A DNA stretch of 24,883 nucleotides. Origin: a virus. Positions 4,293 through 24,883 of the stretch are shown here, piece by piece. The stretch covers positions 1 through 24,883 of the IMG/VR virus record IMGVR_UViG_3300034190_003745; one strand, written 5' to 3'. Position 1 is the stretch's first letter. The number at the start of each line of letters is the position of its first letter. The notes under the pieces were generated by a model, which was not told the DNA's origin, did not search any database, and worked only from the letters and a program-made list of their open reading frames with translations. The position numbers were made by a program, and so were the translations under genes.

Positions 4293-6242
4293 ATGGAATT
4301 ACCGTCTTTATATCAATCTTTTATACATCTTTCGCGTTACTCTCGTTGGTTGGACGATAAGGGGCGTAGAGAAACGTGGAGTGAAACAGTTGCACGGTAT
4401 TTCGATTTCTTCGAAACGCATCTAAAGGAGGAATGCAATTACGAGGTTCCTACAGAACTTCGCACAGAGTTGGAGTCTGCGGTTCTTAATCTTGAAATTA
4501 TGCCGTCTATGCGCGCACTGATGACCGCAGGGGAAGCATTAAGGAGAGACAACGTTGCAGGGTACAACTGCTCCTATGTCAGTGCAAACAAACCTAAGTC
4601 GTTTGATGAGATTCTGTACATCCTCATGTGCGGAACAGGAGTCGGCTTTAGTGTCGAACGAGAATTCATCAAAACCCTGCCGACCATAGCAGAGGAGTTC
4701 GAAGACAGTGATACAACGATTATTGTCCAAGATTCAAAGATGGGTTGGGCGAAAGCCTATAGAGAACTGTTTAGCCTTCTCATTGGAGGTCAAGTTCCAA
4801 AATGGGACACGAGCAAAGTTCGTCCTGCCGGCGCACGCCTTAAGACTTTTGGAGGAAGAGCATCCGGACCCGAGCCGCTCGAAGACCTCTTCCGCTTCAC
4901 AGTTGACACTTTCCGAAAAGCAGCGGGTAGAAAACTTACTTCTATCGAATGTCACGATATCATCTGCAAAATTGCGGAGATTGTCGTTGTCGGGGGTGTT
5001 CGAAGATCGGCACTGATCTCTCTTTCCTCGCTCACGGATGAGCGTATGAGAGATGCAAAGAGTGGTGCTTGGTGGGAAGCAGATCCCCAGCGAGCACTTG
5101 CAAATAACTCTGTCGCTTACAAAGAGAAGCCAGAGCCAGGTATCTTCATGGAAGAATGGCTTTCTCTTTACAAGTCAAAGAGTGGTGAGCGTGGTATCTT
5201 TAACCGAGATGCTGCACAGAAGCAAATTGAAAAGGCGAATGACTTTAGAAAGCAACTGAACCCAGAGTATCGTATGCGTGAATCTGAGTTTGATTTTGGA
5301 ACTAATCCATGCTCAGAAATTATTCTTCGAGATAAAGAATTTTGTAACCTAACTGAAGTTGTTGTTCGTTCTGATGACACCGAGGAGTCTCTACGGAGGA
5401 AGGTGCGTCTTGCCACCATTCTTGGCACTTGGCAGTCAACTCTTATCAACTTCAAGTATCTTTCGGGAGACTGGAAGAAGAACTGCGAAGATGAGAGACT
5501 ACTTGGTGTTTCCATGACTGGTATCATGGATTCAAAGGTAACACGAGAACTTAAAGGTTTGGATCTAAAATTAAGAACGTTCAAGTCTATTGCGATTGAA
5601 ACCAATAAGGAACACGCCGATATTCTCGGTATTCCGCAGAGTGCAGCAATCACTTGTGTGAAGCCTTCTGGAACAGTCTCTCAGTTAACCGATGCTGCTT
5701 CCGGTATTCACGCTCGTCATAGTCAGTTCTATGTCCGCACCGTTCGTGCTGACAACAAGGATCCTCTGTGCGAATTTATGAAGAGATGCGGTTTCCCACA
5801 TGAAGCCGATGTCATGAAGCCAGAGCATGTTACCGTGTTCTCATTCCCCGTGAAGTCACCAAAGGGATGTGTTACTCGTAATGACATGACTGCTATTGAG
5901 CAGTTAGAACTTTGGCTTACATACCAACGCTATTGGTGCGAACATAAGCCTTCTGTAACAATCACTGTTCGTGAGGAGGAGTGGCCATTGGTGGGTGGAT
6001 GGGTATATGATCACTTTGATGAGATTTCTGGTATTTCATTCCTTCCGCACAGTGATCACTCTTATCGACAAGCACCTTATCAGGAGTGCGGAGAAGCAGA
6101 GTATAAAGAATTACTTAAGTCTCTACCAACGGATGTTGACTGGACTGGACTTGGTGATTACGAAAAAGAGGACAATACGTCAGGAACTCAGACATTCGCC
6201 TGCTCTGGTGACTCATGTGAAGTAGTCGATTTAACGAAATGA
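4293..6242 (+). CDS. nrdJ: Class II (adenosylcobalamin-dependent) ribonucleotide reductase, monomeric
   Basis: Reduces ribonucleotides to deoxyribonucleotides with adenosylcobalamin as radical source, independent of oxygen. At 649 residues it is somewhat shorter than the Lactobacillus leichmannii monomeric enzyme. Motifs: YNCSY with the substrate-reducing Cys93, GTGVGFS (114-120), the active-site loop TNPCSEI with thiyl Cys340 and Glu342, the second redox Cys at 351 (FCNLTE), a KPSGTVS phosphate-binding loop, and a C-terminal cysteine pair C637/C642 (CSGDSC) spaced as in the leichmannii enzyme for thioredoxin regeneration. No ATP-cone and no partner NrdB gene is seen. The start is fixed by SD TAGGAG upstream of 4293. 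It needs B12 from the host, which may relate to the CobS-like gene at the right end. Confidence 0.95.
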   Translation: MELPSLYQSFIHLSRYSRWLDDKGRRETWSETVARYFDFFETHLKEECNYEVPTELRTELESAVLNLEIMPSMRALMTAGEALRRDNVAGYNCSYVSANKPKSFDEILYILMCGTGVGFSVEREFIKTLPTIAEEFEDSDTTIIVQDSKMGWAKAYRELFSLLIGGQVPKWDTSKVRPAGARLKTFGGRASGPEPLEDLFRFTVDTFRKAAGRKLTSIECHDIICKIAEIVVVGGVRRSALISLSSLTDERMRDAKSGAWWEADPQRALANNSVAYKEKPEPGIFMEEWLSLYKSKSGERGIFNRDAAQKQIEKANDFRKQLNPEYRMRESEFDFGTNPCSEIILRDKEFCNLTEVVVRSDDTEESLRRKVRLATILGTWQSTLINFKYLSGDWKKNCEDERLLGVSMTGIMDSKVTRELKGLDLKLRTFKSIAIETNKEHADILGIPQSAAITCVKPSGTVSQLTDAASGIHARHSQFYVRTVRADNKDPLCEFMKRCGFPHEADVMKPEHVTVFSFPVKSPKGCVTRNDMTAIEQLELWLTYQRYWCEHKPSVTITVREEEWPLVGGWVYDHFDEISGISFLPHSDHSYRQAPYQECGEAEYKELLKSLPTDVDWTGLGDYEKEDNTSGTQTFACSGDSCEVVDLTK

Positions 6243-10642: not shown

Positions 10643-10901
10643 TTTGTTCTAACGCTCTTCTTATCCAAAGTAGATCTGTTTTAATTTCTGCGAGATCTGT
10701 CATTAGTGTGGCACGAAATGCCTCGCTTGTGTCTAATCTGGAATCTAAAGTTTCTAAATTTCTTTCTATAAATTCTAATTTTGTTTCGTAAGTTGCATCT
10801 TTTTGTGCAACAAACCAAACTGTTGATCCAAAGGTGATCGCAAAGCCAAGAATCGCGCTCATAATAGAAATGGTGGCACTAGTCTTCGCCGTAGCAGTCA
10901 T
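10635..10901 (-). CDS. Small membrane-anchored coiled-coil protein
   Basis: An 88-residue protein with one N-terminal membrane segment (about 12-32, ISIMSAILGFAITFGSTVWF) followed by a heptad-like coiled coil (KLEFIERNLETLDSRLDTSE and on to the C-terminus). The topology would leave the coiled coil on one face of the inner membrane. An inner-membrane spanin (Rz-like) shape is possible, especially with a lipoprotein gene in the same operon, but it is short and far from that gene. Its ATG overlaps the upstream stop (TAATG) after SD AGGAGACG, and its end overlaps the next gene by 8 bases. Function unknown. Confidence 0.65.
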   Translation of the reverse strand: MTATAKTSATISIMSAILGFAITFGSTVWFVAQKDATYETKLEFIERNLETLDSRLDTSEAFRATLMTDLAEIKTDLLWIRRALEQND

Positions 10902-13465
10902 TATCGTCTCCTTTTAGACACAATATGTTGTTTTTTCTGACCGGGCGTACCCTCTATGTAGGTTTTTAATAATTCATCAGTTCCCTCAAACCCAGCTCCA
11001 TATTCCTCGCCGATTCGATGCTTGTTATCCGCTCTGTTTTGACTTCTATCCCTCGCCCTTAGATTAGAATCGCCATTATTAAGTGCATTTCCATCTTTAT
11101 GATCCACATCTTGGTGGGGTTTTACTTTACCACTTTTGACCATTCTTCTTCTAGCCAAAACTCTATTTGATCTCTTTTTTCTTTGCTCTGGTTTTCCATG
11201 AAACGTCTCGTATTCGTGCTTATAGTCTCGCTTTGATGGATCATCCTGTTCAAACACCAAGTTAAAAGACTCGTTAACCCCATCTTCTTCCTCCGTGTAG
11301 AAGGTGTCTTCGAAGTCGGGTTTCTCTGGTAAAACCGGTACTTTCTTCTTTTTCCCGTTGATTGTTATGATATTCATTCTGCCCTCTTCGGGTGCGTCTT
11401 CAATAATATTACCACTGACAGATATATCCAGTCCTCTTGAGATTTCCCTTAAAATCTGCTCTGGGTTCTTGCCGTAAAAGTCACCAAGAAGTTCTGGTGT
11501 GTAAATGAAAGCGGTGTCTCCGTTCATTTTGACTTTTGGTTTGTTTGCCTCTGCGAGTTCGATATTTTTCCCTTTGAGTTCGAACCTGAAAGTCGGTTGG
11601 GTTATTTTTCCCCTGCTCTTGGATCGGATTCCGACGTAAGTTTTTGGCATCACGCTTGTGATATAATCCCCATCTGACTCGCCTATTTCTTCGAACCCTG
11701 CTGGACTGAGAAGATGTGTTGCCGCTGCCTCTGGATTGTCCTCGAATGCTCTTCTCCCAGTGAGTGCTTCGTGAACCAATTCTCTCTTAAACTCTTCACT
11801 TTCTGATAAAAACTTAACAAACTCGTCCTGAATGTTCTTTGTCACAGTTCCAGAATAGTTTTGCCAATTGTACTTGTCCTTAAGGTTTCCGTTCTTATCA
11901 AACATCTCTTCAAACCAAGGTTTTCCGCCGTGTCTATCCTTTGCCTCTTCAATATGCTTTGGATCTAACATCTTGTTTGGAAGTGATCTTAGAGATTTAG
12001 CAACATTTTTTGCAGCATTCTGCATAACTTCCTGATCTTGAGCGCCGACGATCGCAGAGAGGTTCTCAAGCGTTTTGGCGGTTGTCTGTGCGCTTTCACT
12101 TGACAGTTGAATGTTACCATTCATTTTAAGAGATATTTTATTGTCCCCGCATATCAAATCTGTTTTTGGTTCCGGTCTTCCAGAAATCCCCACCTCGTCG
12201 GAGTGCTTGAGTTGTCCTTTGCACTCGTCTGGTATGTGCTTTACTGCGGTTTTGGCCATGTCAAAAACATCTTTTCTAAAAGCAGTTAGATTTTGACCTG
12301 CCATATCGTTTCTTTTTGATAATTGCTCGTCTGTTGCGCCCGCAGCCTTAGCGGCAAGATAAGTGACAGCCCACTCAAACTGGACGCCTCTACCCTGAGT
12401 GATTTCCTTCGACGGACCTGGGTATTGAATTGTGTCTATGTTCTGTGCGGGGCCTGCCGGTGTAAACGGATCCAGAGCATCATATTCTGCTTGGGCTTGG
12501 GCTTGAGCTTCTGCGTCTGCATCTTGTTGCATCTGTTCCGTATCAGAATCAGAGGGCATTTTTTCTTCCGTTTCTTTCTTTCTTTTTTCTGCCTCTTTTT
12601 CTGTGTCTCTCTGTGATTCGACATCTTTCATCATATCAGAAAGATCACCAAAAACTTCCATTGAAGTTGGAGTTTGCTTAAATTTTTGTTGTCTAATCGC
12701 ACCCTCAACGTCAGTCATCGTTGGTTTTGGTTTATCTGGACCGCCCTTAAGAACAGTGTCATCATTGGGGTCAGGTCGAACTACCACCTCTATTTCGCCG
12801 CCCTTTCTTTTTTGAATGAGATACAGATCGGGAGGTAAATATTTGGCTGCTTCGTTTAATAATTCCGGATTGTTCATAAATTCCTCAAATTCCTCGTAAT
12901 TGAACCAATCTAAAGATTCCATGTGAGATGACAGAGTGGAGTGCATTTTCTTTGCATCGGAATGGGAAACATGCTTTGGAAGCATTGTCTTGAATGATGT
13001 GAGTCCCGCCTTTGCTCTTTTTCTTGTTTCTGTCCCGGATGCTCTTTCTACGGGATCATGGGAGTCTGGATCTCTGTGACCAGCGGAAACAATAGAAACA
13101 GATTTTAGTCCGGAGTGTTTCTTCAGGGCGTCTGCTTTTTTATTCATCTCTGCGTGCCGATCTGATCCTACGATCAAAGTTGCGTGTTGATATCCACTTT
13201 TTGCAGCGTGCTCTGCCGCATGAAACATGCTTTTAACTTCTGGATGAGAAACTACGTTATGTCCTCTAAGAACTTTTTTTGCAAACCCTTGCTTCACGTC
13301 CGGCGGCAATGGATTTTTTTTGCCATCATGAGTTTGACTCAAATAGATTGCGTGATCACCCCCGACTTTTTTGGCATGAGATCTTACCGCGTCTGCTAGT
13401 TTTAGATGTCCCGCGTGTGGGGGGTTCATTCTACCGAATGCGAATACAAGGTGTTTATTTGCCAT
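10901..13465 (-). CDS. Fusion of NMNAT-like nucleotidyltransferase, PD-(D/E)XK-like domain and HNH nuclease
   Basis: An 854-residue protein. Residues 1-180 form a cytidylyl/NMN-adenylyltransferase-like domain: FGRMNPPHAGH with the HxGH motif at 17-20, LSQTHDGKKNPLP, IVGSDR (98-103) and the SAGHRDPDS and GTETRKRAK region. After a helical stretch with an LNE site (203-205, before AAKYLPP) comes an acidic, Gln/Glu-rich linker (about 280-335). The next domain has FEWAVTYLAA (Glu364) and PKTDLICGDNKISLK (Asp436, Lys447), a PD-(D/E)XK-like pattern. The C-terminus (about 745-815) is an HNH domain: RRRMVKSGKVKPHQDVDHKD then GNALNNGDSNLRARDRSQN. I use the ATG at 13465 (SD GGTGGAG) over a GTG five codons upstream. 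It is the first gene of the late operon. The nucleotidyltransferase and HNH calls are firmer than the middle one. Confidence 0.8.
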   Translation of the reverse strand: MANKHLVFAFGRMNPPHAGHLKLADAVRSHAKKVGGDHAIYLSQTHDGKKNPLPPDVKQGFAKKVLRGHNVVSHPEVKSMFHAAEHAAKSGYQHATLIVGSDRHAEMNKKADALKKHSGLKSVSIVSAGHRDPDSHDPVERASGTETRKRAKAGLTSFKTMLPKHVSHSDAKKMHSTLSSHMESLDWFNYEEFEEFMNNPELLNEAAKYLPPDLYLIQKRKGGEIEVVVRPDPNDDTVLKGGPDKPKPTMTDVEGAIRQQKFKQTPTSMEVFGDLSDMMKDVESQRDTEKEAEKRKKETEEKMPSDSDTEQMQQDADAEAQAQAQAEYDALDPFTPAGPAQNIDTIQYPGPSKEITQGRGVQFEWAVTYLAAKAAGATDEQLSKRNDMAGQNLTAFRKDVFDMAKTAVKHIPDECKGQLKHSDEVGISGRPEPKTDLICGDNKISLKMNGNIQLSSESAQTTAKTLENLSAIVGAQDQEVMQNAAKNVAKSLRSLPNKMLDPKHIEEAKDRHGGKPWFEEMFDKNGNLKDKYNWQNYSGTVTKNIQDEFVKFLSESEEFKRELVHEALTGRRAFEDNPEAAATHLLSPAGFEEIGESDGDYITSVMPKTYVGIRSKSRGKITQPTFRFELKGKNIELAEANKPKVKMNGDTAFIYTPELLGDFYGKNPEQILREISRGLDISVSGNIIEDAPEEGRMNIITINGKKKKVPVLPEKPDFEDTFYTEEEDGVNESFNLVFEQDDPSKRDYKHEYETFHGKPEQRKKRSNRVLARRRMVKSGKVKPHQDVDHKDGNALNNGDSNLRARDRSQNRADNKHRIGEEYGAGFEGTDELLKTYIEGTPGQKKQHIVSKRRR

Positions 13466-13482
13466 TATACGGTTCTCCACCG

Positions 13483-13490
13483 TATTTATA
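13483..13490 (-). promoter_or_regulatory. T4-type late promoter for the 13465-6924 operon
   Basis: A perfect TATAAATA on the minus strand, 17 nt before the ATG at 13465. It follows directly on the U-run of a terminator, so it re-starts transcription right where the upstream unit ends. The leader would be very short and holds the SD GGTGGAG. Confidence 0.7.
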
Positions 13491-13491
13491 T

Positions 13492-13523
13492 AAAAAAACG
13501 AGAGGAGTTCTAGAACTCCTCTC
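13492..13523 (-). terminator. Rho-independent terminator ending the 15212-13593 unit
   Basis: On the minus strand an 11-bp stem (GAGAGGAGTTC and GAACTCCTCTC, 13500-13523) is followed by C/G and seven U residues (13498-13492). It closes the transcript that carries the exonuclease and NUMOD1-like genes and the anti-16S element. Confidence 0.8.
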
Positions 13524-13592
13524 TGGACCCCACTTTATGTTGTGCTGGATCACCTCCTGACTTTGGTATCCTTCCGGGCCCAAAGTTATATA
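13492..13592 (-). ncRNA. Candidate structured RNA with a 15-nt complement to the 16S rRNA 3' end
   Basis: This 101-base stretch after the stop of the 13593 gene has no credible reading frame. Read on the transcribed minus strand it holds a small hairpin (ACTTTGG / CCAAAGT, 13560-13586), then the unpaired AGGAGGTGATCCAGC (13558-13544), then the terminator. That sequence is complementary to the conserved 3' end of bacterial 16S rRNA (GCTGGATCACCTCCT). No ATG, GTG or TTG stands at SD distance behind it, the nearest GTG being about 20 nt away and giving only seven codons. Seed plus terminator is a small-RNA layout; an over-long SD left from a lost gene is the alternative. Confidence 0.35.
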
Positions 13593-13919
13593 TTATTTCT
13601 TTGTGATGAACTTGAATTTTTTGTGTTGTTTTCTTTTTCCCGAAATTACTTCATATAAAGCAGATTTTGTAAGATTGTGTTCCCTACAAAACTCCATAAC
13701 ATTAGATACTTCAAAGATTTCGCCCTCTCGCTCAAAAATCATAATTCTTTTTTCTGGTTCTTTTTCGAGTTCTTCCCATTTAAAATATCGACCTATTTTA
13801 TTAAATTCGCCTCCATATTGTTTGCAAAAATTATTTCTATTGTTTTTTGCATGAGAATCCTCATTCATTTTCACCCACGTTTTGGTGTTTCTTTTGTTTA
13901 CATTTTCTTTACTAAACAT
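13593..13919 (-). CDS. Small NUMOD1-like protein with KMNE/GGEF module
   Basis: A 108-residue basic protein. The first half has WVKMNEDSHAKNNRNNFCKQ followed by YGGEFNKIGRYFKWEE, shared with the protein at 18697-18924. The second half, VSNVMEFCREHNLTKSALYE then VISGKRKQHKKFKF, looks like a NUMOD1/IENR1 helix-turn-helix, the DNA-binding repeat usually attached to homing endonucleases; no nuclease domain is present. The ATG at 13919, preceded by SD GGAAGGA and overlapping the exonuclease stop by 8 bases, is preferred over an in-frame start 11 codons upstream. Function unknown; DNA binding is inferred. Confidence 0.7.
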   Translation of the reverse strand: MFSKENVNKRNTKTWVKMNEDSHAKNNRNNFCKQYGGEFNKIGRYFKWEELEKEPEKRIMIFEREGEIFEVSNVMEFCREHNLTKSALYEVISGKRKQHKKFKFITKK

Positions 13920-20980: not shown

Positions 20981-21048
20981 AATAAGCAGAGCAGGCGATC
21001 GCGGTGTTTTTGATAAGCGCCCCAGAGCCTTTTCTCTGCGCCCTCAAC

Positions 21049-21076
21049 CAGCCACGCGAAAGCGTGGCTGTGTTTT
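21049..21076 (+). terminator. Rho-independent terminator after the 20699 gene
   Basis: A 9-bp stem, CAGCCACGC (21049-21057) and GCGTGGCTG (21062-21070), with a GAAA tetraloop and a T-rich tail (TGTTTTT). The tail runs straight into the late-promoter box at 21077. Confidence 0.85.
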
Positions 21077-21084
21077 TATAAATA
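21077..21084 (+). promoter_or_regulatory. T4-type late promoter box
   Basis: A perfect TATAAATA that directly continues the T-run of the terminator, 22 nt before the ATG at 21107, with SD ACAGGAGAAAA in the leader. Confidence 0.7.
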
Positions 21085-21106
21085 CTGTGTCTGACAGGAG
21101 AAAACA

Positions 21107-21559
21107 ATGCCGAAGTCATTAAAAGAAAAAACACAGCGATTAGTAAAAGAGCAAGAGGATCCCCATGTTTCTGCCGATCCTCGTCATCCAGCCAATAGAG
21201 GCGGCGAATCTCCAGTGAGAAAGAAGTCAATGGCCCATGTTGTTGATGTTGATGGCGTAAAGCACTACTCACAGATGCCATTTCTCACAAAGGGCGGTAA
21301 GGTTCACGGACCGGCAAAAGGAAAACAAGTGCCACTACCCAAAGGGGCAAAGTATAGATCACCTGTGAAAACAGAAGAATCATACTCCTATGTCACCAGA
21401 GCAAAAAGACTGGGCGATGTTATTGCTGGTAGAACTGCACAAGGTCGAACCGATAAGGTTAGCAAGGCACAAAGCAAACTTCTTGGTATGGGAGCCAAAG
21501 CAGCAGCAGACAAAATGATGGGCGACATTACCCGCGAGCGTCTTGGACTCAAAAAGTAA
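21107..21559 (+). CDS. Small basic protein, unknown
   Basis: A 150-residue basic protein. The N-terminus (MPKSLKEKTQRLVKEQEDPH) is a charged helix with an LKE triplet. A middle part with MAHVVDVDGVKHYSQMPFLT and GGKVHGPAKGKQVPLPKGAK looks like an extended Gly/Pro/Lys-rich segment, followed by a helical end (VTRAKRLGDVIAGRTAQGR, ERLGLKK). It has its own promoter and SD and ends before a strong terminator, so it is a one-gene unit like 20699. A nucleic-acid-binding virion protein is plausible from composition only. No family recognised. Confidence 0.65.
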   Translation: MPKSLKEKTQRLVKEQEDPHVSADPRHPANRGGESPVRKKSMAHVVDVDGVKHYSQMPFLTKGGKVHGPAKGKQVPLPKGAKYRSPVKTEESYSYVTRAKRLGDVIAGRTAQGRTDKVSKAQSKLLGMGAKAAADKMMGDITRERLGLKK

Positions 21560-21562
21560 AGA

Positions 21563-21578
21563 CAACCGGCGCCGGTTG
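21563..21578. repeat. Perfect 16-nt palindrome CAACCGGCGCCGGTTG
   Basis: A GC-rich inverted repeat with no spacer, just after the stop of the 21107 gene and 40 bases before the terminator at 21617. It could be part of the 3' end structure or a binding site at the border to the GC-rich block. Confidence 0.6.
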
Positions 21579-21616
21579 ATAGTTCGACGCCGATTGCACA
21601 CAAAGGAATGTTTCGA

Positions 21617-21636
21617 GGGGGCGAAAGCCCCCTTGT
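21617..21636. terminator. Terminator between convergent genes
   Basis: A 6-bp GC stem, GGGGGC and GCCCCC, with a GAAA tetraloop (21617-21632), followed by TTGTT on the plus strand. It lies between the plus-strand 21107 gene and the minus-strand ParB-like gene and can serve the former; the minus-strand side has only a weak U-run. Confidence 0.7.
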
Positions 21637-22680
21637 TCATTGGTATAGAATGGTATCGGTGTCCGAGTCGATCTCGATGAGACTATCCGCATCCTCGTTG
21701 TTGGACGATCCGAGATCCTGCGGCAACGCACCCACGAATCGAATCGGGTATCCGTACTGCCAGTCATTGACGCCGACTGCCTCCAGGATGTCATCAAGGA
21801 GTTGGTTGGCGGTGTCGATCACCTGCTGCCTCTTCTCCTCCACGCTCGCATCACCAGTCTCCAGCACGGCGATCACGACCTCCGTTGGGTTGTGTCGTTC
21901 GCCGTTCGGTCCTACTTCGTTGAAGTGACTGATGGCACGAGCGATGACTCGATACTCCGAACCCTGCTTCATGACTGCGCCATATACTTCCCGATCGGCG
22001 TCCCAACCGAAAGCGGTCGTACGGCCGTACTTGTCCATGAGAAACTGGGATGCAGCCTTCTCGGTCCAGTTGAGCCACTGTTCGTGCGAGCCGTTTCGCT
22101 TCACCACTTCGGCGACGATCTGATCCCGGAGAGCCTTCTTCTTGCCCCGATAGAGGATACCCACCTTCTTCTTGATGGAGTCCTTGTCGTTGCGGAGATC
22201 TCCACGCTTGATCTGCTTGCTGAGGGTATCGACGACGGACGAGACATCTGCGTCGAGTTGCGGGGGGTGGTTGTTCGCAGCCTGCTGTGCGTCCTCCCGT
22301 GCAGTCTCGTGATCGAACACGACGAGATCTGCTTCGAACTCAGACATGCCGATGCGGTCAAACGCTTGAAAGCGGTGATTGCCATCGACGATGTAATACT
22401 TCTTGCCTTGGTTCTCCGGAAGGTTACGATCCGCATGTGGGATCTCTTCGAGTACGGGCTTCGGGATCGTGCTGTCGATTCCGTTCTCGTTGATGTATTC
22501 GACGAGGCTCTGAATGTGGTAGTGGTCCATTCCCTTCGATCGCGTCGAGTTCCGACTCGAATCATCGTTCACCTCATCGATCCTGACACGAATAGTGCCG
22601 ATGCTGTTCACGCCATTGATACTTGCAATTCTGTTGTTCATCAGTTGATTCTCCATATTAATCGCTTCTTCTTTGGTCAT
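21637..22680 (-). CDS. ParB/sulfiredoxin-fold nuclease-like protein
   Basis: A 347-residue protein with the ParB-like core: a substrate-type loop (DSTIPKPVLEEIP), then KKYYIVDGNHRFQAFDRIG with the DGNHR motif (99-103), as in DGQHR/DGNHR-type ParB N-terminal domains that bind CTP or act as nucleases. After residue 125 comes a long helical part of unknown fold (IKKKVGILYRGKKKALRDQ) and an acidic tail (NEDADSLIEIDSDTD). No helix-turn-helix of plasmid ParB is obvious. The start is uncertain: the ATG at 22680 has a weak, purine-only leader, and MENQLMNN eight codons later is possible. Codons end in C or G far more often than in the left part of the window. Confidence 0.75.
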   Translation of the reverse strand: MTKEEAINMENQLMNNRIASINGVNSIGTIRVRIDEVNDDSSRNSTRSKGMDHYHIQSLVEYINENGIDSTIPKPVLEEIPHADRNLPENQGKKYYIVDGNHRFQAFDRIGMSEFEADLVVFDHETAREDAQQAANNHPPQLDADVSSVVDTLSKQIKRGDLRNDKDSIKKKVGILYRGKKKALRDQIVAEVVKRNGSHEQWLNWTEKAASQFLMDKYGRTTAFGWDADREVYGAVMKQGSEYRVIARAISHFNEVGPNGERHNPTEVVIAVLETGDASVEEKRQQVIDTANQLLDDILEAVGVNDWQYGYPIRFVGALPQDLGSSNNEDADSLIEIDSDTDTILYQ

Positions 22681-22733
22681 TTTTTTCTTCTTTTTCGTCT
22701 CTTTCCCTAGAGACTTCGGAACTTTCGTAACGA

Positions 22734-23129
22734 TCAGACATTACCGCACCTCCAGTATTCGTCTGCCAGTTCGTATTGCAGATCTTTAGCTTCTCGTTCA
22801 CCTTCGCCCTTCCAGTGCCCCCGTTCCCACTGCCAGAGATGCACGCACTCGTGGAAGATTGTGGCGAGCATGTCTCGGATCGACTGATCGATTGCGATAT
22901 CGATCACATAGTCGATCTTCTCACCCTCCCACTCGTAGCATTGGCCGTAGCATTTCAGATCCTTGTATTGCCATGCGTTGATACGAATGTTGATGTCCTC
23001 GAATTCGCCATCGAAGTCGTTCAGTTGCATGTTGTACCGATTGAGGAACCATCGCACCGCATCGATCATCAAATGGCGGGTTTTGTCGTTACAGTGAGCC
23101 GGATCGTGGATGATGTAGTTCTTCTTCAC
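22734..23129 (-). CDS. HExxH zinc-binding protein (putative metalloprotease)
   Basis: A 131-residue protein with a helix carrying HECVH (93-97) within LATIFHECVHLWQWERGHW, the zincin signature of metalloproteases, followed by a helix with Glu/Asp (KDLQYELADEYW) that may give the third ligand. The fold outline (strands, HExxH helix) resembles SprT-like or small phage zincin domains. The GTG at 23129, with SD GGAGAG and overlapping the upstream TGA (GTGA), is preferred to an unsupported long extension to 23270, which would read into the small membrane protein gene in another frame. Substrate unknown. Confidence 0.7.
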   Translation of the reverse strand: MKKNYIIHDPAHCNDKTRHLMIDAVRWFLNRYNMQLNDFDGEFEDINIRINAWQYKDLKCYGQCYEWEGEKIDYVIDIAIDQSIRDMLATIFHECVHLWQWERGHWKGEGEREAKDLQYELADEYWRCGNV

Positions 23130-23293
23130 TGTGTTCTCTCCATCGCTGCAAGCACGAGCCCCAGATTGGCGAGGGAGTACGAGATCCAGACGAGTGCCCA
23201 AGGGTAATCGTGCCGGATCAAGTACCCCACGCCAACGATCGCATACAGGATGCCTGCGATCATGGGGCACACTCGGACGAGTGCGTCGATCAT
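23126..23293 (-). CDS. 55-residue protein with two membrane segments
   Basis: A short frame between the 23290 and 22734 genes with overlaps at both ends: its ATG shares ATGA with the upstream stop, and its TGA overlaps the GTG of the HExxH gene. The product, starting MIDALVRVCPMIAGILYAIV, has two hydrophobic segments (MIAGILYAIVGVGYLI and ALVWISYSLANLGLVLAAM) separated by a short charged loop (RHDYP). No family recognised; the hairpin topology fits a small holin-type or regulatory membrane peptide, which cannot be told apart here. Confidence 0.7.
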   Translation of the reverse strand: MIDALVRVCPMIAGILYAIVGVGYLIRHDYPWALVWISYSLANLGLVLAAMERTQ

Positions 23294-23607
23294 GCGGACA
23301 CGACCTCCGTGCCGATGATCATGGTTTCGCCGTCGTCCGCAGGGAGTTCATCCCGGAGACACATCTCGTGATACTCCTTGAGTTCTGGCAGGATATAGGA
23401 TCCCTTGCCAACCTGACGAGACTTGTCCTTGACGATCCACGCGGGCGCCCAGTCCATGCCGCAATACTTTGCGGACATCATCTTGAGGTAGGATCGTGGA
23501 TATCGGTCGAGGATATCTACTCCATTGGCATCGGCTTCCTTACAGAGGCCAGTGTAGAGATTGATGATGAATTGCTGCTGCTTGGGCTTAAGATTGTCGA
23601 AACTCAT
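23290..23607 (-). CDS. Small unknown protein
   Basis: A 105-residue soluble protein. MSFDNLKPKQQQFIINLYTG starts a helical part; DILDRYPRSYLKMMSAKYC and WAPAWIVKDKSRQVGKGSYI, ending LPELKEYHEMC, suggest a small winged-helix-like fold, but there is no catalytic motif. SD AAGGAG lies before the ATG at 23607. It stands between the CobS-like ATPase and the two-segment membrane protein, all on the minus strand and GC-rich. Family not recognised. Confidence 0.65.
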   Translation of the reverse strand: MSFDNLKPKQQQFIINLYTGLCKEADANGVDILDRYPRSYLKMMSAKYCGMDWAPAWIVKDKSRQVGKGSYILPELKEYHEMCLRDELPADDGETMIIGTEVVSA

Positions 23608-23647
23608 AGATTTGATACTCCTTGTTCTTCTTGTTCGAAAGATGGTT

Positions 23648-24883
23648 TCAGGCGTTGAGTGCGTAATCCGCCGCAGTCACACGCTTCTTGGGTTCCCACT
23701 TGCTGAGTTCTTCTTCGTTGGCACGATAGATCTTGCCGGTGACGGTCCACTTCTTCATACCCGGATCCCACTTCGCACCGAGAGGCTTCACTTCGTCCTT
23801 CTTCTCGAATGCGACATTCAGATCGATGATGCCATCGTCCTGAACGGACGCTGAGTCAAAAGGGACGGAGGAGTCCGCTCCTTCCTCGCCCTCGGAGGAA
23901 GGAGACATGGACTCATCCACCTTGTCGTACAGATTGCGGAACGCCTGCTGGGTGTCGTCGTCAAACCTGGCAAGAGCCAGATCGATCGCAGTGGCACGAT
24001 CCTTGAAGATCGAAAACGCCTTGCAGATGTTCTCCAGACGCCGGGTCGTGATGATCTCGTCGATCGCACCCTCGGAGAATGCCTTGCGGGTGATCTCCGC
24101 CCAGGAGGTGAGGTGTTCGGCGAAGTCATTGTCAACGTGCCCAAACTTCTCCATCTTCTTGATGAGAATACGCTTCTCGGTGGATCGGGCTGCGTAGTCC
24201 TGCTCCATCGTCCAGTCGAAACGATCCAGGAACGCCTCGTTGAGAACGTTGGTGCCGATGAATCGTCCGTCGTTGTCACCCTTACCCTTGGTGTTGGCAG
24301 TGGCGATGACGGTGAATCCCTGCTTGGGAGTGATCCATTCGCCAGTCTTCTTGATGAAGATACCCTTACCTTCCAGCACGGGCTGGAGGCACATGATCTT
24401 GGACGAACCGAGATCGATCTCGTCGAGGAGGAGAACAGCGCCACGCTGCATCGCTTCGACGACGGGTCCGTAAACGAACTTCGTCTCACCCTCGACGAGG
24501 CGGAAACCACCGACGAGATCATCCTCGTCCGTCTCGGAGGTGATGTTGACACGGAAGCACTCACGATTCGTCTTGGCACACGCCTGCTCGATCATCGTCG
24601 TCTTGCCGTTGCCGGACATACCAGTGATGAAGATGGGAGCGAACATGTTCGCAGCAACGATCTTCTCCACGGTCTTGGAGTGTCCCCACGAAACGTAGTC
24701 CTTCATGCGATCCGGCACGAGACTGACACGCTCACCAGCGGTCATGCCCATCACTGCGTTCAGCACGGGAGCGGGCGTTGGATCGCCAACCGGAGCGGCG
24801 ACGGGGGCAGGAGCAGGAACAGGGGCGGGTGCAGACTGCTGAGGAGTCACGGTGCCACCAAACTCGGGCACGGCGAAGACGCC
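23648..24883 (-). CDS. cobS: CobS-like AAA+ ATPase with C-terminal DUF5710-like domain (5' end missing)
   Basis: A MoxR/CobS-type AAA+ ATPase: Walker A GMSGNGKTT (84-92 from the GTG at 24871), Walker B AVLLLDEIDLG, a sensor-like ATANT, and FLDRFDW arginine-finger region, plus ISE-type helices. The N-terminal 40 residues are a Pro/Ala-rich linker (APAPVPAPAPVAAP). After the ATPase core an acidic linker leads to DLNVAFEKKDEVKPLGAKWD then PGMKKWTV, a DUF5710-like domain. CobS is a subunit of cobalt chelatase in aerobic B12 synthesis and is carried by many marine T4-like phages. The frame is open to the window edge, so the gene starts outside; the GTG is not a secure start. A general AAA+ remodelling role is the alternative to cobalt insertion. 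Confidence 0.85.
   Translation of the reverse strand, partial: GVFAVPEFGGTVTPQQSAPAPVPAPAPVAAPVGDPTPAPVLNAVMGMTAGERVSLVPDRMKDYVSWGHSKTVEKIVAANMFAPIFITGMSGNGKTTMIEQACAKTNRECFRVNITSETDEDDLVGGFRLVEGETKFVYGPVVEAMQRGAVLLLDEIDLGSSKIMCLQPVLEGKGIFIKKTGEWITPKQGFTVIATANTKGKGDNDGRFIGTNVLNEAFLDRFDWTMEQDYAARSTEKRILIKKMEKFGHVDNDFAEHLTSWAEITRKAFSEGAIDEIITTRRLENICKAFSIFKDRATAIDLALARFDDDTQQAFRNLYDKVDESMSPSSEGEEGADSSVPFDSASVQDDGIIDLNVAFEKKDEVKPLGAKWDPGMKKWTVTGKIYRANEEELSKWEPKKRVTAADYALNA

Follow-up and report, generated by a model that had tools for sequence, protein, structure and literature searches.

We conclude from sequence comparison that the stretch of viral DNA analysed here encodes a member of a new phage non-coding RNA family, one predicted to base-pair with the 3' end of 16S rRNA. 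The window and its relatives establish the element itself, the terminator beside it, the conservation of its core, the substitutions in that core that keep the pairing and, in most members, a stem that closes around it. What such an RNA would do is a separate question; the reading that we favour, at a probability of roughly 0.47, is that it would act in trans as a decoy, taking 30S subunits out of initiation led by Shine-Dalgarno (SD) sequences.

A complement of the 16S tail at the end of a predicted transcript

Within the window, by which we mean the whole 24,883-nt stretch of DNA from an IMG/VR virus record, the 15-nt site AGGAGGTGATCCAGC complements the 16S tail with 0 mismatches, just as the initial annotation had it (Table 1), and it is the sole match in the window at three or fewer mismatches, a level at which shuffled sequences give a mean of 0.33 matches. 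Its core, AGGAGGTGATCCA, is the complement of the single-stranded 16S tail. The E. coli 16S gene rrsH ends in ...GGTTGGATCACCTCCTTA, and 13 nt of that tail (TGGATCACCTCCT, which we take to be the 16S stretch directly after helix 45) are complemented exactly by the window site; against E. coli, the final two nucleotides of the site (GC) give one G.U pair, and they presumably fit the GCTGG form of the 16S tail found in many other bacteria. The duplex of the site with GCUGGAUCACCUCCU is calculated at -31.7 kcal/mol, versus -21.9 kcal/mol for the next-best site; the background, scanned along both strands at 49,730 positions, averages -5.7 (sd 2.9). The site ranks first among all of these positions, which bears out the view that no other site in the window would pair as strongly with 16S rRNA.

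Table 1. Positions of the predicted RNA and its neighbours in the window
Feature	Position	Strand	Basis or remark
16S-tail complement AGGAGGTGATCCAGC	13544..13558	-	exact match, duplex scan, conservation in relatives
Closing stem, 5' arm UGGGCCC	13576..13582	-	extension to 13585 possible; shuffle p 0.01
Closing stem, 3' arm	13524..13530	-	stem search and fold
Intrinsic terminator	13492..13523	-	10-bp stem 13523-13500, then G + T7
TATAAATA	13483..13490	-	immediately 3' of terminator, ahead of next gene's ATG
Upstream small ORF, 108 aa from ATG	13593..13919	-	RNA sits in its 3' UTR
Downstream gene, 854 aa from ATG	10901..13465	-	cytidylyltransferase-like N-terminus, HNH-like C-terminus

Two further claims of the initial annotation stand as they were made: no ATG, GTG or TTG occurs in the 20 nt after AGGAGG in the window, and a terminator (GAGAGGAGTT-CTAG-AACTCCTCTC followed by G and T7) lies beside the site on the same strand. 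A third stands in part, in that the small hairpin CTTTGG/CCAAAG is present in the window and absent from the relatives, which share a longer-range closing stem. The 94-nt RNA delimited in this way folds at -35.4 kcal/mol (z -3.65), and none of 200 shuffles folds as well. The sole ORF that covers the window core (TTG start, 42 aa) is not common to the relatives; a frame NFGPGRIPKSGGDPAQHKVGSREEF, picked out by eye along the window RNA, was dropped, no core-covering ORF being common to the relatives. The 108-aa product of the upstream ORF has an N-terminal VN..NT.TW..NED....F...GGEF motif and a C-terminal NUMOD/I-HmuI-like domain.

Behind the terminator lies TATAAATA, which we take to be the T4-type late promoter consensus and which probably drives the gene downstream of the terminator; similar sequences stand behind the terminator in relatives. 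This arrangement bears on the idea of antitermination controlled by the ribosome, in which a 30S subunit would open the closing stem or the terminator and let transcription run on into late genes. The terminator does directly adjoin the closing stem, as such a switch would have it, but its stem does not overlap the core and, because the late promoter sits directly behind it, the downstream gene needs no read-through. We consider antitermination improbable.

Relatives found with and without the core

How widely is the element shared, and is it also seen where the core was not used to find it? An exact 31-nt pattern returned one near-identical contig as its sole match. Searches with the downstream gene and with an exonuclease gene led to L013 and L016, respectively, and both of these loci, found without the core, have the element at the same place, with a terminator. 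Scanning for the core plus T6 gave 29 loci, among which those of window-like anatomy have the small upstream gene in common; several of the hits proved unrelated or coding and were left out of the family, e.g. L214, L220 and L224, in which an ORF contains the site. For sampling independent of the motif, six of eight aligned copies of the small upstream protein served as the query, which yielded 32 viral loci, some of them near copies of one another, and the element was sought in the 330 nt behind the stop codon of the small gene.

The element stands behind the small gene and ahead of a terminator in 19 of the 32 loci, as exact AGGAGGTGATCC in 10, as AGGAGGTGGTCC in 4, as AGGGGGTGATCC in 3, as GGGGGGTGATCC in 1 and with a 1-nt deletion in L266; its core starts 3 to ~210 nt past the stop codon. 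The other 13 loci are without the element in those 330 nt. Eight of them form the lake clade, a working name that makes no statement about habitat; each has the exact core in one copy at another place in its contig, which brings the carriers to 27 of 32, L266 included. No element was found in L251, L253, L254, L261 and L274 (5/32), whose contigs of 10.8-31.7 kb are possibly fragments. On a tree of the small protein (34 rows), the label "RNA behind gene" takes 4 changes versus 11.1 with shuffled labels, in keeping with an old element that has seldom been lost or moved. In many of the loci L248-L275, the small gene is separated from the RNA by an ORF of ~40 aa that looks like a transmembrane (TM) segment (..LGTxFYxVVVFxAGALIGTPLWxW...LPW); the window is without one.

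The pattern RGGRGGTGRTCCR occurs in exactly one copy per record in 20 of 20 family records, with one further copy in G023 (lake RNA), and its reverse matches once in 42 records. The RNA was found in none of the 16 named phage records searched: the one RGGRGGTGRTCCR match among them, in W02, lies inside an ORF, and the pattern is absent from the 15 others, which include Melnitz, HTVC008M, S-PM2, P-SSM2 and T4. Comparing the RNA regions with named phages by blastn returned nothing beyond a piece of the terminator and a short match at chance level. Searching named phages with the small gene gave matches mostly to its NUMOD part alone, or none, and these were not used.

The carriers of the RNA are a group of T4-like phages. 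A T4-type major capsid protein is encoded in 4 of the 21 family records searched (the window does not reach that gene), and the nearest named capsid proteins, 54-61% identical, are those of phage Melnitz, marine cyanophages and a single-cell marine virus. Ribosomal protein bS21 was found in 0 of 21 family records. As to the rest of the window, 4293-6242 on the + strand has weak Pfam matches, the best below 30 bits, that point to the large subunit of a class II (B12-dependent) ribonucleotide reductase, and G+C is ~0.52 in 21001-24000 versus 0.35-0.47 in other parts.

Conservation of the core and of its pairing

Conservation of the core relative to its flanks had been set beforehand as a check, and the element passes it: in 16 loci chosen independently of the core, information per position is 2.0 bits in the core versus 0.25 in the flanks. 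The substitutions in the core point in the same direction. Including an A to G change at position 13 in L263, every one of them puts G in place of an A whose partner in the 16S tail is U (positions 1, 4, 9 and 13), turning the pair into G.U; the sole change of another kind is the deletion in L266. Of the 39 possible single changes, six keep the pairing, with A to G allowed at four positions and C to T at two others, and the chance that four changed positions would all do so is (6/39)^4, or ~0.0006, and (6/13)^4, or ~0.045, when transitions alone are counted. In 22 of 24 loci, no other site forms as good a duplex with the 16S tail as the core does, the exceptions being L246 (6330 bases), where another site reaches -26.1 versus -24.9 for the core, and L266, where the core merely ties. 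Selection very probably acts on the pairing with 16S rRNA.

Could the site nevertheless serve, or once have served, translation? A start codon 4-12 nt past AGGAGG is found in 0 of 18 loci, the nearest ATG beginning 13 nt behind it (L271), and an ordinary SD site was rejected on this count. A hidden gene was likewise rejected: from one to another of 18 relatives, the ORFs that cover the core change in frame, in length and in sequence, and behind the site no short coupled gene came to light. AGGAGG is common among phage SDs, which might be thought to favour coincidence, the leader of a lost gene or the relic SD that the annotation had suggested; the start codon is missing, however, and the core is conserved even in loci chosen without it. 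Because of that conservation, and because the substitutions keep the 16S pairing, a relic SD is very unlikely, and to this whole group of explanations we give hardly any credence.

The same substitutions speak to a role at the level of DNA, as an origin, as a site for packaging, or as an attachment site whose counterpart is the 3' end of the 16S gene. A single copy per record and inverted repeats nearby would be in keeping with such a site, but the A to G changes retain RNA pairing and not DNA identity, the marine loci keep one orientation relative to transcription, and the polarity of the terminator suits an RNA. We hold a DNA element to be quite improbable.

A stem that closes around the core

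In marine RNAs, the core is enclosed by a stem of 8-19 bp whose sequence is quite different between members. Over 18 loci, stems formed with their own partner score a mean of 27.5 versus 16.5 (sd 3.2) with partners of other lineages, and the own-partner stem beats every exchange in 12 of the 18; comparison with shuffled flanks gives a p of 0.02 or less for 17 of 20 marine RNAs. Compensatory changes are seen in the stem between the close relatives L271/L275 and L248/L252. The stem is weak in L245 (p 0.199), L267 (0.08), L276 (0.075) and L266 (0.189), as it is in individual lake sequences (p 0.34, 0.055 and 0.60). Taken from sequence, these comparisons indicate a closing stem that is common to most members. 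The MAFFT alignment of four marine RNAs misplaces this stem, so stems were compared outward from the core, and no covariance model was built. An inner hairpin, GGAT...ATCC, was also considered as the common feature; the outer stem was preferred because, among the matches listed, most had no terminator behind them, and because L016 lacks the hairpin. Additionally, in the marine RNAs of L226, L227, L269, L271, L272 and L275 the core is preceded by G(C/T)ACAC and followed by a CCCTTT or CCCC stretch; it is possible that this stretch pairs with part of the core as an open/closed switch.

The lake clade has a conserved RNA of ~220 nt with frame-breaking indels (alignments of 7 and 5 rows), which carries AAGGAGGTGATCCAGCC and in which the 16S complement is lengthened to 17 nt. 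Its element follows a small lipoprotein-like gene, perhaps Rz1-like, whereas the marine element follows the small NUMOD gene or the 40-aa TM-like ORF; because the gene neighbourhood differs in this way, the element appears to be an independent unit and not the regulator of one gene. The strand assignment in the lake clade is tentative. There, the strand opposite to the SD has TATAAATAC upstream and a hairpin with a T-run, which would suit a functional opposite strand, i.e. a mimic of the 16S tail that titrates the SD sequences of mRNAs. The SD strand of the same clade has its own 12-bp terminator, however, and its G.U pairs favour it by a small margin in the pairing of the closing stem (61 of 64 cells versus 57 of 64 on the opposite strand); in the window and the marine loci, moreover, both the terminator and the genes on either side are oriented with the SD strand. 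A mimic on the opposite strand is, in our judgement, decidedly improbable.

What the RNA might do

The mechanism that we favour can be laid out step by step. The transcript of the upstream operon would have the RNA as its 3' end and would stop at the terminator. The closing stem would keep open a loop bearing 12-17 nt of complement to the single-stranded 16S tail, and this loop would pair with the tail of a 30S subunit; because a start codon is missing, the resulting complex would be unproductive. With the closing stem shielding its 5' side and the terminator its 3' side, the RNA could act in trans and withdraw 30S subunits from SD-led initiation, e.g. late in infection. In other words, we infer from sequence an RNA that is produced, accumulates, binds to 30S subunits and works as a decoy. 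The main objection is that a trap for 30S subunits in general would not spare the phage, which uses SDs itself: short SDs precede 20 of the 32 window ORFs versus 9.5% of random stretches, so the notion of an RNA that blocks only host initiation is disfavoured.

The main rival keeps the ribosome and dispenses with the free small RNA. As a docking site in cis, the element would hold a 30S subunit that protects the upstream mRNA or influences termination or coupling, and it would then be the 3'-UTR counterpart of STAB-SD, where 30S subunits bound at SD-like sites stabilise mRNAs. The marine element does sit behind a translated gene, just ahead of the terminator. No promoter of its own was identified for the RNA with confidence and, since the core in addition lies 3 to ~210 nt past the stop codon, the RNA may exist solely as a 3' UTR. 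Against docking in cis, the genes that precede the element are not the same in the two clades, and a complement of 13-17 nt far exceeds what a docking SD requires. We think this rival doubtful, while taking it more seriously than any other.

If the RNA does bind 30S subunits as predicted, it offers genetically simple access to global phage control of initiation and a route to the effect that a long SD duplex free of a start codon has on the 30S subunit. Takeover of the ribosome by phages is known, and we know of no characterised phage RNA that targets the 16S tail itself; a search of the open-licence PMC literature likewise found no phage RNA aimed at that tail. Tentatively, and on sequence grounds, we suggest that there may be a class of phage RNAs that pair with the entire 16S 3' tail and sequester or reprogram 30S subunits during infection.

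Other phages also have 16S complements. In L229, L233, L221 and L237 (viral) and in L319-L323 (gut-type genomes), AGGAGGTGATCCA is followed by ATCTC and a T-run and is apparently non-coding; several of the gut-type contigs are titled Lachnospiraceae, the element often stands ahead of a scaffold-like phage gene, and L229 and L319-L323 have no match in Rfam. These loci were found by motif, so conservation of the core among them is not independent, and unrelated Lachnospiraceae prophages may have reached the 16S complement separately. In another phage group (L123, L138 and L140), AAGGAGGTGATCCA lies directly ahead of a strong terminator, in L123 between two phage genes.

Comparison with known systems

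At the gathering threshold, Rfam 15 gave 0 matches for the window and 0 for 18 related loci; by E-value alone, three lake-clade loci gave two snoRNA matches (E 0.2-0.26), both under their gathering scores. The nearest Rfam family is CC2171 (RF01867), a Caulobacter small RNA, at 22.3 bits and E 0.0063 versus a gathering score of 75; it is present in 1 of 14 control genomes, that of Caulobacter. Like the phage RNA, CC2171 has the same 14 nt, as AGGAGGUGAUCCAG near its 5' end, and a terminator-like hairpin at its end; unlike the phage RNA, its model is 159 nt long and sets core and hairpin ~104 positions apart. Among the open-licence PMC literature, no paper describing its function turned up, and the main text of PMC4117421 leaves 2171 unmentioned. 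Were 30S binding true of the phage RNA, it would bear on why CC2171, for which we found no described function, has these same 14 nt.

Structured RNAs have been described in related T4-like marine phages, as in phage Melnitz, for which PMC9004378 gives a glnA riboswitch and a two-piece tmRNA. These differ from the phage RNA, and the 16S-complement pattern is missing from the Melnitz genome.

Two further systems invite comparison. STAB-SD elements, as in the cry and gsiB mRNAs, are short and lie in the 5' UTR; they resemble the phage element in having an SD-like site that binds 30S subunits without initiating translation (binding being predicted on the phage side), and they differ in that the phage site is at a 3' end, between the upstream stop codon and the terminator, is enclosed by a stem and spans the entire 16S tail. 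The other is 6S RNA, a decoy that sequesters RNA polymerase by mimicry, as the proposed phage RNA would sequester its own central machine; the target differs, being RNA polymerase and not the 30S subunit, and the phage RNA has no match in Rfam. By analogy, a phage RNA class of the kind suggested above could conceivably be for the ribosome what 6S RNA is for RNA polymerase.
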